A stretch of 46,707 nucleotides of DNA from Solicoccozyma terricola (lineage: Eukaryota; Basidiomycota; Tremellomycetes; Filobasidiales; Piskurozymaceae): NCBI GenBank assembly GCA_001600875.1, contig BCLD01000010.1, positions 344,523 through 391,229 on the forward strand, given 5' to 3'. Below, piece by piece: positions 18,344-24,149 of this stretch. The notes beneath the pieces are model-generated. The model saw only the letters and a program-made list of their open reading frames with translations, was not told the origin of the DNA and made no database searches. The position numbers and the translations under genes were made by a program. The stretch's first letter is position 1, and each line of letters begins with the position of its first letter.

Positions 18344-19727
18344 CTACGCAAGACACTGTCCCAACCACCAACAAACGGATCGAATGATGTCGCACAGTTC
18401 ATCGAGCGTGTAAGGTCCTTGGTGATTATCCCGAAGACCCGGGACCTAAGGAAAGAGTATTCAGCGGCGGATCTTCCATTGGGGGGGGGGGGGGGGGGGG
18501 GGGGAGGGGGCGTACATGAACAAATAACACCGGCTTCCTCGCTTTCATGCCCCTTTCAGACACCGTCACGACTTCACTCCACTTCAGTGATGTAGCGTAT
18601 GTGTATCCACATAGGTAACCACCAGGATCCGCTGATTCACGTATAGCCTGTCGTCATACCATCAGCTTGAGAAACCGGTGAATACAACCTACACATCGAG
18701 CGAAACGTCCCCGCGGGAAGGCGGGGGGGGGGGGGGGAAGGGATCTCTCACCGCCATACCCTTGCCTTTCAAGTACTTTACGAGTTCCTTTGTATCCACT
18801 GCAGTGTTCCATCGATCTACAGACCCTTCAAGACCGTTTCCACCTGGTACTGGAGGTGGGAAGCGACCGTCGACGTCGGGATGGACGGTGTCGTAGTTTA
18901 GTCTGTCTGTTGGGAGGGGGCGTCATGGTCGAGGCATTGACGTCGAAATGAGGTTCAATAACTCCAGCCAGGATAGGCCCCGGTCTCACCGGAACCAGTC
19001 TCTAGCGTACACTCCTTGTAACCCATGGCTACACCTAGATGTAACACCACATCCCATTCTTCCTCTCTATGTATCTCTGGAACCTGTCGTATGATATCGG
19101 TGTAAGAAACTCGAAACTCTCGAGATGTTATTGTGACTGCACGAGATGTTGGAGAGTGTGGTTTGAAGAGTGGAGTGGATGGAGTTGGAGTTGGAGTTGG
19201 GGAGGTAAGTTGGTAGGATCGGGAGACGCCGACTCCGTGTTGAGGATTGGACGTTTCATCGATGTTGGTTTGCGAGGTGGTAGCTTGTGTGGATGTGAAG
19301 GATGATATAGGTTCGGATGTTAGAGTTTCGTTTGCTAGTCTACGACCGATGAGCATTGATGGATTTTCCAAGACATCGAGGAATGGCTAGTGGGGTGGGG
19401 TGGGAGGGAGGCCGGGGGAGGGTAATAGAAAGATTCAGCGCGAGTGATAGAGTGGCGGTGGCAGACTAGAACGGCGACAGCATTGTCGAATAAGAGAAGA
19501 CAGTAGTGCTCGCTGCGCTCACAGAAGAGAAGACTGTATTGCTCGCTGCGCTCGCAGAAGAGAAGAGAGTATTGCTCACTACGTTCGCGAACAAGTGAAT
19601 GCTCGCTTCGCTCGCGAGACAGTCTTCGCTACGCTCAGTGAGCGAATGCTCGCTACGCTCGCACACTCACCCCAAACCCGGTCAATAGCAACCTAACCTG
19701 CCTCTCCTGACCATCCACAGCTGGCAT
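18344..19727 (-). CDS. Pyroglutamyl-peptidase I (cysteine peptidase family C15)
   Basis: It removes N-terminal pyroglutamate from peptides. Five exons join in frame, 19671-19727, 18990-19386, 18752-18906, 18516-18647 and 18344-18445, about 280 residues. Exon 1 (MPAVDGQERQVRLLLTGFG) and exon 2 (PFLDVLENPSMLIGRRLANE) form the family's opening G-F-G-P-F motif. HREEEWDVVLHLGVAMGYKE follows. The catalytic cysteine is in DPGGYLCGYTYATSLKW and the catalytic histidine in KPVLFVHVPG. The C-terminus is GPYTLDELCDIIRSVCWW. Compared with bacterial enzymes (about 215 residues) there is an insertion of roughly 60 residues rich in S, T and P (TPTPTPSTPL) after the N-terminal helix. Intron 1 holds GCGAGCG repeats, and introns 3 and 4 contain C-runs of 16 and 24 bases on the sense strand. 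Confidence 0.9.
18481..18504. repeat. 24-base G run (sense-strand poly-C)
   Basis: A G homopolymer on the forward strand at 18481-18504 lies in the last intron of the peptidase gene (18446-18515). On the sense strand it is poly-C close to the donor. A sister tract at 18723-18737 lies in the preceding intron. Confidence 0.85.
19488..19668 (-). repeat. GCGAGCG-type repeats in peptidase intron 1
   Basis: At least five copies of TGCTCGCTNCGCTCGC or its degenerate form, spaced by GAAGAGAAGA-type linkers, lie in intron 1 (19387-19670). On the sense strand they read GCGAGCGNAGCGAGCA, and the first copy begins only about eight bases after the donor. Confidence 0.88.
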
Positions 19728-20182
19728 GTCGATTCCCAGCCTTTTCGTATGAAGCTGGTTGCCACGAGTTGGATTATCGAGGAATGTGGGTATCCCAATC
19801 TATCTACGGGTGAGACATGGACGGGATTGTTCGGAGATTGCCGAGACTGGGTGGTGGTGGTGTGAATGGCCGGGAAGGGCGTGGGTGTGGGAGAGGGTGG
19901 TCGGGATGACTGTGCAGTGTGCTCCTGACCAGCTCCTGACCACCCTCTAACCGCCCTCTGGCCCCCTACCCGTAACCTTCCCCTGGTTCTAGTCGATGCT
20001 GTGCGATGCGATGACTTGCCACTGGAAATGCACGTGACACTTTCATACATCCCCCCCTTCCACGTAGACACTTTCATCGCCACACATCCACACCACACAT
20101 TCACATATCCACCATCACACACCCCACCCCCACCCCCACCCACCCATCCCCCCATCCCCCCATCCCCCACCCATCCCCTCTC
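19728..20182. promoter_or_regulatory. Divergent promoter region of the peptidase and HXL1-like genes
   Basis: This is 455 bases between two divergent start codons. It contains CACGTGAC at 20031-20038, whose ACGTG core is the kind of site recognised by XBP1/HAC1-type bZIPs, then a C/A-rich leader with CCACCC and CCCCCAT runs up to the HXL1 start. Autoregulation is a speculation from this one site. Confidence 0.4.
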
Positions 20183-21805
20183 ATGCCAGCATCTCGATCT
20201 CATACACAACCTCCACCAGGGCGTATACCAGAAGGGGCGTCGGTGGCGGAAAGGAGGTGGTTGGAGGAGGAGGGGCTGGGGGAGAAGGAGAGGAGGAGGA
20301 GGGCGAGGGTGTTGAGGAATAGGTTGAGTGCGCAGAAGTGAGTCGAGCGGCGAGTGTAGCGGCGAGCGTAGCGAGCATTCGTCCCCTGAGCGTAGCGAAG
20401 GACATCTCGCGAGCGTAGCGAGCACTCTCTCCCTGAGCGTAGCGAAGGACATCTCGTGAGCGTAGCGAGCACTCTCTCCCTGAGCGTAGCGAAGAATATC
20501 TCGCGAGCGCAGCGAGCATCCTTTCCCTGAGCGTAGCGAAGAACATCTCGCGAGCGTAGCGAGCAATACTCTCTCTTCGCTCGAATACTCTTCATCTCTT
20601 ATCTCTTGGGAACGTTGCGAGCACCCATCTTCTTCGCGTAGTGATCTCGGTCGTAGACGGAGAAGGAGAGTATAGTAGCTGACGATTCCACCCCGACCCC
20701 CCCTTACCAGTTCACGGAATCGCCGCAAGACGCATCTTCAGCAACTCGAGGAAACTGTTGAACACCTTCGACGGGAGAATGAGATTCTGCGAGGTGGTGG
20801 AACGGTTGATTCTTCGGATTCTTCGGCGACGGAAGGAACGAGATTGGAAAGGAGACTGAACCGCTTTGATGAGGATGAGGATGATGATGAGGAGGAGGAG
20901 GATGTGGATGACGAGGATGTCGAGGATAATCAAGATGACTATTCTCCGTCACGACCTGATCTCAGCCACCGAGGACGAAGAGTCAGTGGGAACACGGTCG
21001 CGACATCCGGTACCGTCGTCTCCCCCGCGTCATCGACTTTTTCCGGATGGGAGAATGAGAAATCAATCAATCAAGCACTCGTCGAGGAGAATGCGGCGTT
21101 CAAGAATCGCATAGAAGCATTGGAGAATATTATTCGAAACATGCTTGCCGGTCAGGTCGTAGCCGCCACCGCCGCCACCGCTGCCGCCACCGCCGCACCC
21201 GCGCCCGCACCACCACAACCGACATTCTCCATCAACGGACAACTTGTCGTTCCCGACCTCAAAGTCTCGTCATTCCCCACCACCCAAACCGCTCTCCCAC
21301 TCTCACCCACGATCTTATCATCCCCTCCTCTCCTTCTCCCCACCAACAACCTCAACCTCACTTGCCATCCAGCAGCGATGGTGACTTTGTCAACCTCCAA
21401 TAACGAGGCTGACAAGGCCCTGCAGCGGGTGTCGTTGATGGTTCGAATTGGGAAAAAAGTAGAAGAATGGAAGATGGACGTGGCGATCAGATGATGATGA
21501 TGATACAGGAAGAGGAACAAAATTCAATTCTTAATCATCATCGTCATCATCCTGATATGAGAGTGACGGCGGACGGGGAAGATCACATCGATATCTCACC
21601 CCTCATCAATGGGAATGGATCGATAGATTCATCACCGTCGTTATACGACGACCTCACACCGGCAATGACATTCGACAGTGATTTCGGTGGAACGGTCGAT
21701 GGTCTCGATTGGAACGCGATACTCTATAATGAAGACGACGAGGACGCGGTGGGGCGGCAAAGGAACGATCGAATGAAGCTGTTTGGACCCAGTGTGGGTG
21801 CTTAG
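20183..21805 (+). CDS. HXL1: HAC1/XBP1-like bZIP factor of the unfolded protein response
   Basis: It is the likely nuclear effector of the Ire1 pathway. Exon 1 (20183-20337) encodes MPASRSHTQPPPGRIPEGAS and the first half of the basic region, EKERRRRARVLRNRLSAQ. Exon 2 starts at 20711 and continues NSRNRRKTHLQQLEETVEHL, RRENEIL. The bZIP signature N-x7-R is NRLSAQNSR and the sequence is closest to the XBP1/HAC1 class. An acidic stretch and a second possible coiled coil (SINQALVEENAAFKNRIEAL) follow. Without further processing the frame stops at 21494 (312 residues). A second frame ending at 21805 overlaps it and encodes an acidic, probably activating tail (DDLTPAMTFDSDFGG, GLDWNAILYNEDDED). 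Removing 21373-21422 joins them into 399 residues. The gene symbol is by analogy with Cryptococcus HXL1. Confidence 0.9.
20344..20645 (+). repeat. GCGAGCG repeats with about 47-base tandem period in HXL1 intron 1
   Basis: The 373-base intron 20338-20710 contains roughly four tandem copies of a 47-base unit. Each copy includes CTGAGCGTAGCGAAGGACAT followed by CTCGCGAGCGTAGCGAGCAC and a CTCTCTCC tail. Copies differ by a few substitutions (GAAGGACAT against GAAGAATAT, CACTCTC against CATCCTT). Less regular units flank the array. It starts within about ten bases of the donor. Confidence 0.85.
21363..21433 (+). promoter_or_regulatory. Predicted Ire1-cleaved unconventional intron (two hairpins)
   Basis: The 5' hairpin has stem CCATC (21365-21369) with GATGG (21377-21381) around the 7-base loop CAGCAGC (21370-21376). 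The 3' hairpin has loop CTGCAGC (21420-21426), closed by CC/GG and, after a small internal loop, GACA (21411-21414) with TGTC (21430-21433). Cutting after the third base of each loop, as in XBP1, removes 21373-21422 (50 bases, 2 mod 3). Codons then run ...CAT CCA G|CA GCG GGT..., which opens the second frame. The ends are not GT-AG, so a spliceosome would not remove it. Cutting at an alternative CAG|CGG (after 21425) would give 53 bases and the same frame. Confidence 0.85.
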
Positions 21806-22429
21806 ATGCCGGTTGGTATATTTTAGGAAAATTCTTTTCGGTCCCGTGAGTACTGATTGGGGGGTCAAGATATGCGTTGGGGGGGGGGGAAACCGTGGGG
21901 AAAATCTGACATTGGACGTATTTCTTCGAATAGCGAAATATTTTTAATACGTGCGCAGGTAGCCGTCGATTTTAATCACTGTAGCAATACCCCGAAGGAA
22001 CCTCATCTCGGAGCGCCGTGTGGACGAGCCCAGGTATTCTCTGCGTCTTTTACTATGATCCCCCCCCCTCTCTTCCCCCCCTCCCACCCCCCCAAGTCTC
22101 ACCCAACCTACCTTACACCCGCTTTCGCCCTTCTCTCCCTCTCCCCCAGCTGATCTCGCTGCTCCCGCTCGCCGTTAACGGTTCTAGAGCCGAGCATGCT
22201 GATGACGCTGGGACGAGAGATTGAGCTGGTGATTTGCCGTGTGTGAGGTTCAGGCCGAGTGAGGTGCGAGGGTGTGGAAGTGGTGGTGGTGGATTCGATG
22301 GGGGAGGTTGGATTGGACGATGAACAACATGGGCATGCGCTGGTGCAACGTAGGGATGTATGTGGCTTGTATGTAGTATAGGTAGATAAGACGAAGAAGA
22401 TCCATATCGAATGGTGTCTATCCGATCGA
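21806..22429. other. Intergenic region after HXL1
   Basis: This is the HXL1 3' region and the promoter of the Aim32-ferredoxin gene. It contains a short G-run near 21882-21890, C-runs near 22061-22092, and GTGGTGGTGG steps near 22279-22290. No coding sequence is supported. Confidence 0.5.
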
Positions 22430-24149
22430 ATGACGCGGCGTCGATTGGCCGCCCCGCCCGCGTTTCAACAAATATCGGCAAACCACAGTGCGACCGTCCG
22501 ATTTCCCAATGTAATTGTGTCGTACACCTCCAGCATGTCCCTGCCGTGGTCGACAGCTCGCCAGACTTGCTCAGCATGCCTACGAGAAGCTACTCGCCGG
22601 CCAACGACCGTGGTTCTGCCCTGCAGACGACGCTGGCGTGTTTCAGGAAGAACTCTCTCAAGTATGAGCTCGCAGCAGACGACGTCAACTACCTCTTCCA
22701 TTCCCTCTACCCTCTCTCCAACCTCTAACGAATCATACGCAACGCCGGTGCTTCCCCTGTCACGTCACATTCCCTCATCCTCGGGCCTTTTACTGTTGTC
22801 CATACCAGGTCCAACAAGCAAATGGCCAAGCCACGTAGAAATGGAAGATGAGCTGGTCAATGAGCTTACAAAAGTCGCGAAAAAGGTCGGTGTTAGGGTT
22901 GTTTGCGAAGTGGGACAGGATCGATATCAAGCGAGGTTGATTTCGGCCGATGGTAGAACGAGCGATTTAGGGAAACTGTCGATGGAAAAAGTTGGATCGT
23001 TCGACTTTTCTCAAACGCTAGCTACGTCTCTGGAATCAGACGCAGCCATACCTGCCTCTCGTGAGATCCTCGTATGCACACACGGCGCTCGCGATTGTCG
23101 TTGTGGGGATATCGGCGGAGACCTCGTGGCGGCGCTGAACAAGGAGATTGGCAGACGGAAGATCGATGAGGTTGCAGTGAGAGAGGTCAGTCATGTTGGA
23201 GGTCACAAGTGAGTGTTTTATTAGTCGCAATTCACCGCTCGTCTCGATCTTTCGGGGGTGAAACGTATCGTTGAAAAAATCGAATATCCGTCCCCCTTTT
23301 GAAAAAGATGGGCCGCCAACGCAATCCTCCTGCCATCTCTACACCTACTAGGAAATCTTCGACCTTCCCACGCTCCAGCAGTCCTTGATCATCTACAATC
23401 ACTCTCATCCGCGCCTGCTATTGAACCTTTACTGGGAGACACATCGGTGATCAATGATGCTCGCTCGTATGCAGCGATAGGCATGTGGGATCATTTCAGA
23501 GGAGCATTTGGAAAGGAAGAGGAAGATCAGGAGGCGATGTGGGTGGAGGCAACGTCGTTTGTACGATCAGAGGGGAAGCAGGATTCGGCGGCTGAGACGA
23601 CGTTGAATGTTGACATTGAAAAGTCTACATCACCGGTAACGTCGTCGTCGGCCGATCTCCTTTCTTCCCGTCCTACATCTCTGCTACGACCCACTCCACA
23701 AGAAAAGGTCCGTCTGAAATTCATCAGAATAGTGGATGGCGAGTCGGAAATCAGCTACGTAGACGCATTTACTGGGGAGACTGTCATGGATGTGGCAAAA
23801 CGGGAAGGTTTGGAACCGATCGAGGGTGTTTGTGGTGGACATCTTGGTGAGTTGTGCGAGAGTCGAGCCAACGTGACATACCCGGTATGAAAACTGATCT
23901 AAATACATACCCTTCTCTTTTCTTTTTTTGGTACTTTGTTTTTCTCTGATAGAATGCGCCACATGTCATATCTACCTCCCGGCGTCCGCGCCACAGTCTG
24001 AAGTGACTGACGACGAAGAGGACATGTTGGGGTACGCTTTGGAGTACAAGGAGGATGAGAGTAGGTTGGCATGTCAGATTGAGGTCAGTCAGAGGTTGGC
24101 GGAGTGGAGTCAGGTCGATGGGAATGGTATAGGATTGCCTCGATGGTGA
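22430..24149 (+). CDS. Aim32/Apd1-type [2Fe-2S] domain fused to adrenodoxin-type ferredoxin
   Basis: Three exons, 22430-23208, 23308-23846 and 23953-24149, join in frame. The first part is a sucrase/ferredoxin-like domain of the Apd1/Aim32 family: WPSHVEMEDELVNELTK, then ILVCTHGARDCRCGDIGGDL with C-x8-C, and EVSHVGGHKWAANAILLPS with H-x3-H, the bis-histidine cluster ligands known for that family. After a linker rich in S and T comes a complete vertebrate-adrenodoxin/Yah1-type ferredoxin: VRLKFIRIVDGESEISYVD, GVCGGHLECATCHIYLP (C-x5-C-x2-C), DDEEDMLGYAL, and the fourth cysteine in SRLACQIEV. The N-terminus is arginine-rich, fitting mitochondrial import; an alternative in-frame start at 22535 (MSLPWSTARQTCSACLREAT) looks equally like a presequence. 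Two different clusters in one chain suggest an electron-transfer relay. Confidence 0.9.

Follow-up and report, generated by a model that had tools for sequence, protein, structure and literature searches.

A bZIP transcription factor gene of Solicoccozyma terricola with a predicted 50-nt Ire1-type intron, comparable in layout to Cryptococcus HXL1

The stress sensor Ire1 switches on the unfolded protein response by excising a short intron from an mRNA in the cytoplasm; established cases include HAC1 of yeast, XBP1 of humans, and HXL1 of Cryptococcus. The described lengths of these introns differ widely: the human XBP1 intron has 26 nt and that of Saccharomyces cerevisiae HAC1 252 nt, short-type introns are given as 19 to 29 nt, and fungal introns are quoted as spanning 19 to nearly 850 nt (PMC6222058). 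The cut sites are described as lying in loops that follow the rule CNG|CNGN or CNG|ANGN, with the Ire1 of S. cerevisiae requiring a loop of 7 nt, and a zipper-like RNA structure has been described for XBP1 (PMC6037481). In Cryptococcus HXL1, a conventional intron has to be removed to obtain the bZIP frame, and an Ire1 intron of 56 nt then follows; this unconventional intron has CAG at both borders and a predicted stem-loop structure, and its published description presents it as lacking complementarity to the 5' UTR (PMC3154848).

The gene considered here lies in a window of 46,707 nt from the basidiomycete Solicoccozyma terricola (assembly GCA_001600875.1, contig BCLD01000010.1, positions 344,523 to 391,229 of the forward strand), by whose positions the features are given below. 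It very probably encodes a HAC1/XBP1/HXL1-type transcription factor of the unfolded-protein response, with a 50-nt intron that is excised by Ire1. The intron of this type is a strong prediction from the sequence, for which we infer cleavage, ligation, and dependence on stress. The parts of the gene are as follows.

20183-20337 + 20711-21372 + 21423-21805, plus strand: coding sequence of the bZIP gene in its predicted spliced form, 399 aa.
20183-20337, plus strand: exon 1, 155 bases, beginning with the start ATG and ending midway through the bZIP basic region (from the translation; the bZIP_1 match crosses the join).
20338-20710, plus strand: conventional intron 1, 373 bases, GTGAGT...CTGAC...CCAG, holding a dispersed tandem repeat (from the sequence).
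20711-21372, plus strand: exon 2, 662 bases, the remainder of the bZIP domain and an acidic, Pro/Ala-rich middle part (from translation and codon usage).
21373-21422, plus strand: predicted Ire1 intron, 50 bases (CNG-CNG borders, frame switch).
21423-21805, plus strand: exon 3, 383 bases including the stop, 126 whole codons, acidic C-terminus (from translation and codon usage).
21373-21494, plus strand: alternative C-terminus of the unspliced form, a 313-aa protein (from the translation; stop at 21492-21494).

Among the known systems, the predicted intron appears to be closest in layout to that of Cryptococcus HXL1. As described for HXL1 of C. neoformans and C. deuterogattii (PMC3154848, PMC5970146), a short Ire1 intron with a length of 2 mod 3 would change the C-terminus. 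The two differ in dimensions: the Ire1 intron has 50 nt here and 56 nt there, the repeat-bearing intron 1 has 373 nt here as against 55 nt there, and the unspliced and spliced proteins have 313 and 399 aa here, compared with 406 and 426 aa for the HXL1 described from C. gattii. The removal of the conventional intron is needed in the present gene because the bZIP domain is joined only across the exon 1/2 border. As in HXL1, which was compared by its description, pairing between the 5' UTR and the intron is nothing special: with 20001-20182 taken as the 5' UTR, yeast-like pairing was not beyond chance, as 113 of 300 shuffles were as strong, and a HAC1-style translational block by such pairing is unsupported on the same count. 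S. cerevisiae HAC1, as described, has in common with this locus the CNG|CNGN loops, Ire1, and a Trl1-type ligase, but the intron predicted here is far shorter and its pairing with the 5' UTR remains at the level of chance. A further parallel is cib1 of Ustilago maydis, likewise a basidiomycete bZIP mRNA, for which the Ire1 splicing predicted here has been described.

The initial annotation had assigned the product to the XBP1/HAC1 class of bZIP proteins. The bZIP domain itself is borne out by a match to Pfam bZIP_1 at protein residues 34-79, spanning the exon 1/2 join (6.7e-08, 33 bits against a cut-off of 27.6). The class, rather than that of some other bZIP, is suggested by the gene layout and by the basic region LRNRLSAQNSRNRRK, which we take to resemble that of XBP1. 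The closest PDB sequence matches of the protein are NRF2 (the best, E 0.006) and Jun, with E values of 0.006-0.04, and an NCBIfam search gave a single match, far under its cut-off. Viral and prokaryotic contigs yielded no relatives, which is what one expects of a gene from a fungus. Intron 1 reaches 373 bases because a dispersed repeat enlarges it. This is a tandem array at window positions 20362-20573, with 4.5 copies of a GAGCGTAGCGA-rich unit of 47 bases; it has at least 64 genomic matches, counting itself (with 40 of the 88 first-look candidates scored). A further copy of the repeat lies at about 19536-19660 on the minus strand. With an E limit of 10, an Rfam search across 20000-23000 gave 17 matches, all of them short of the gathering score; the top one, mir-598 (E 0.014), falls in GAT-rich repeats.

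The case for the predicted intron begins with the reading frame. A gap of 50 bases (2 mod 3) between the cuts, a coding sequence of 1200 bases, an unspliced end at 21494, and a second frame open over 21413-21805 had all been proposed initially and were confirmed on the sequence. Loss of 21373-21422 shifts translation from the frame that stops at 21494 to the one that is open to 21805; the exon lengths (155 + 662 + 383) add up to an exact multiple of three, and the two frames overlap such that both are open only over 21413-21491. Among 5000 shuffles, 12 kept the frame of exon 3 open over 126 codons. Codon usage independently places a change of coding frame near the predicted Ire1 intron. The scoring, which disregarded stops, was trained on nine frames from other parts of the genome (4890 codons); leave-one-out controls gave 0.118 +/- 0.081 for right frames (81 segments, 7 of them below zero) and -0.065 +/- 0.073 for wrong ones (162 segments, 31 of them above zero). 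Over 20711-21372 the exon-2 frame scores +0.12 and the other frames -0.07 and -0.09, and over 21423-21802 the exon-3 frame scores +0.15 and the others -0.06 and -0.04, stops again being ignored. Directly past the predicted cut, at 21423-21452, the exon-3 frame already stands at +0.24 and the exon-2 frame at -0.17, these values coming from only 9 and 10 codons, respectively. An earlier codon model with 10 training frames, among which the L006 frame was not bZIP-bearing and L013 and L015 overlapped, gave the same switch; synonymous codon choice alone, under this 10-frame model, did not separate the frames.

Both borders of the region so delimited lie in loops that fit the CNG|CNGN rule. The 5' loop is CAGCAGC at 21370-21376, with the predicted cut CAG|CAGC after 21372, and the 3' loop is CTGCAGC at 21420-21426, with the cut CTG|CAGC after 21422; the 3' loop of XBP1 is also CUG|CAGC.

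21365-21381, plus strand: 5' splice-site hairpin, with a CCATC/GATGG stem and the loop CAG|CAGC (from the local fold and stem counts).
21418-21429, plus strand: 3' splice-site loop CTG|CAGC, with a weak CC/GG or CCC/GGG stem (from forced and local folds).

Two such loops and a perfect 5-bp first stem were part of the original proposal and were found at these positions. The stem at 21365-21369/21377-21381 has five perfect Watson-Crick pairs, or eight pairs (21362-21384) with G-U included. The loop sequences alone are no evidence, because CAGCAGC-N30-60-CTGCAGC occurs at 24 places (some overlapping) in the genome searched (23.9 Mb, 33 contigs) and the same pattern read backwards at 37; the loops by themselves were therefore rejected as an argument. 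The first stem distinguishes the site in the bZIP gene, the only one of the 24 places with at least five Watson-Crick pairs at the first loop, as against 0-1 at the remaining 23 (at most three with G-U). The second stem is not discriminating, since its two Watson-Crick pairs are matched at 2 of those 23. Within the window, the 5' loop alone among 394 CNGCNGN sites on both strands has at least five Watson-Crick stem pairs (two sites when G-U is counted), and in fetched genome loci totaling 125,067 bases, one of which, L031, contains the same site, 3 of 1552 sites do. When 20711-21805 was dinucleotide-shuffled 5000 times, a comparable phased loop pair arose once and any stem-closed loop 20 times. 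Between 20711 and 21700 there are eight CNGCNGN sites, of which only 21370 is stem-closed in the local fold, 21420 and 21423 having two pairs each. Translation is switched into the open frame by only three pairings of CNG|CNG sites, at spacings of 50, 53, and 197 bases, and the 50-base pair is the best formed. The 197-nt pair was rejected, its second loop being without a stem. A 53-nt cut, with CAGCGGG at 21423 as its second loop (two stem pairs; weaker local fold, -1.8 vs -4.6 kcal/mol), is a possible alternative to that of 50 nt.

For the 111 nt around the predicted intron, the free fold has an energy of -37.3 kcal/mol (z -2.71), a value also reached by 4 of 200 shuffles. The modeled fold that we prefer to the one originally drawn combines a helix between the exons, the 5' hairpin, a central hairpin within the intron, and a weak 3' hairpin. 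Its further elements are given here.

21348-21361, plus strand: 5' arm of the predicted exon-exon helix, in exon 2, pairing with 21429-21443 (pair probabilities 0.76-0.94).
21429-21443, plus strand: 3' arm of the same helix, at the start of exon 3 (pair probabilities 0.76-0.94).
21385-21417, plus strand: central intron hairpin, CUUUGUCA-A-CCUC / GAGG-C-UGACAAGG (pair probabilities 0.88-1.0).

The predicted exon-exon binding of -16.6 kcal/mol was as strong in 41 of 1000 shuffles and at 4 of 470 window positions, and the free 50-nt intron folds at -17.7 kcal/mol, which was equalled by 4 of 1000 shuffles and at 9 of the 470 positions; at none of these positions were both energies matched. By prediction, then, an RNA structure juxtaposing the exons is present, and it recalls the zipper of XBP1. 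The likeness to human XBP1, as far as that is described, comprises this structure and the CNG|CNG cut sites in stem-loops; the intron here differs from it in being longer and in having a strong central hairpin of its own, and a Trl1-type ligase is present here.

The folding of the region, which the initial annotation had proposed as a check, upholds its first stem and goes against its second. The 5' hairpin competes with other structures, its five core pairs having probabilities of 0.25-0.40 in the 111-nt fold and an extra C-G pair within the loop (21370-21375) one of 0.25; the minimum-energy fold pairs both loop regions together and is better than the 5'-hairpin fold by 1.2 kcal/mol. Retaining the 5' hairpin, whether or not a 3' hairpin is formed as well, costs 1.2-2.2 kcal/mol relative to the optimum. 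When folds were forced, the first hairpin alone gave -36.1 kcal/mol and the second stem as drawn (CC/GG plus GACA/TGTC) -24.1 kcal/mol. The full second stem is 13.2 kcal/mol above the optimum; its penalty of about 12 kcal/mol comes from GACA, which is tied up in the strong hairpin at 21385-21417, and the stem was accordingly rejected for the 3' site. What is left there is a stem of 2 bp with a 7-nt loop (-35.1 kcal/mol) or of 3 bp with a 6-nt loop (-35.9 kcal/mol). In the 111-nt fold, the 6-nt-loop form of this hairpin has a pair probability of 0.12; a 201-nt fold gives the 7-nt-loop form 0.02, and the local fold at the 3' site does not close the 7-nt loop.

Genes for the IRE1 kinase/RNase and for a Trl1-type ligase, as recognized by their domains, share the genome with the bZIP gene. 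PF06479, the Ire1/RNase L nuclease, is found in two exons on contig 13, adjoined by kinase exons on the same strand, and PF09511 and PF08302, the ligase and CPD domains of a Trl1-type ligase, are found on contig 1. The exons of the RNase domain, at about 1629-2184 on the minus strand of locus L012 (G000:C13:305000-311500), seem by eye to be split by an intron with the unusual donor GTGACG. At their join stands RNK|KNHYQ, presumably the active-site region.

This donor bears on the question of whether a conventional spliceosomal GT-AG intron, rather than Ire1, connects the two frames, which we consider very unlikely. There are 61 GT-AG pairs that could join the frames without a stop, and GTGACT at 21381 is not to be dismissed as a donor, because the resembling GTGACG seems to be in use in the IRE1 RNase domain. 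However, only two of the 61 pairs combine a donor of at least 5/6 with YAG. They start at 21381 and span 110 and 128 nt, and the distance between the AG and the sole CTRAY site is 78 nt in one and 96 nt in the other. None of the 61 has a donor of at least 4/6, YAG, CTRAY 8-45 nt upstream, and a length of 40-150, and an intron of this kind would offer no explanation for the twin loops and the stem. The same donor also forms a frame-keeping GT-AG pair of 45 nt, 21381-21425 (GTGACT, acceptor CTGCAG), which overlaps the predicted Ire1 intron and contains, by eye, a branch-like CTGAC at 21409-21413. It would come as a considerable surprise if nuclear splicing sometimes took this pair in competition with Ire1 for the same bases; were it to do so, the 3' Ire1 cut site would be deleted, leaving the mRNA blind to ER stress.

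It is very unlikely, too, that the loops are there by chance and that the frame change reflects a sequence error of 1-2 bases or a -1 ribosomal frameshift. Either event would have to fall within 21413-21491, where alone both frames are open, and a run of six A (21453-21458), a usual place of errors and slippage, is indeed found there. Yet the stretch upstream of this run, 21423-21452, already has the codon usage of exon 3, if over only 9 and 10 codons; 21395-21490 contains two X XXY YYZ heptamers, both out of the exon-2 frame; and a stem-closed loop that is unique of its kind in the window speaks against chance. Least credible of all is a RIDD-like target of Ire1, cut at the site with the pieces degraded instead of ligated. 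The 3' loop CTG|CAGC does also meet the looser UG|C rule described for Schizosaccharomyces pombe (PMC6037481), but the frame switch into a coding-like sequence, the twin phased loops, the predicted exon-exon helix, and the ligase fit splicing better than decay.

Splicing by Ire1 remains the preferred reading, as it was in the initial annotation; it is supported by the frame switch in codon usage, the rare stem-closed loop, and the lack of a good GT-AG join, and is further backed by the IRE1 and ligase genes and the HXL1-like gene layout. In the proposed course of events, the conventional intron 1 would leave in the nucleus, and the mRNA, retaining the 50-nt intron, would encode the 313-aa form. 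Once the ER is stressed, Ire1 would cleave the two CNG|CNGN loops behind positions 21372 and 21422. With the cut exons still bound to each other through the exon-exon helix, the intron would depart as a hairpin of its own, and CAG would be ligated to CAG by the Trl1-type ligase. The ligated mRNA would then be read in the second frame to 21805, yielding a 399-aa activator, in which we infer an activating role for the acidic C-terminus.

On the evidence of its sequence, the predicted intron would be a convincing but ordinary further example of Ire1 splicing. The conceptual gain is modest because the mechanism is already established, and the length of 50 nt is unremarkable given the range quoted for fungi, falling as it does between the short type and the long introns of yeast. 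The titles and abstract openings of the literature searched make no mention of such a 50-nt intron, a scope that cannot prove it undescribed. The prediction supplies an exact Ire1 intron for one more fungus, in which it would allow a splicing-based reporter of ER stress, and the second C-terminus would escape gene finders that are restricted to GT-AG introns.

For C. neoformans, an action of Puf4 on HXL1 mRNA has been reported. In the present gene, the 500 bases past the stop contain only one Puf-type element, a Puf5-like UGUANNNNUA. This Puf5-like element, UGUAGCAAUA, is situated at window position 21980, 175 bases 3' of the stop.
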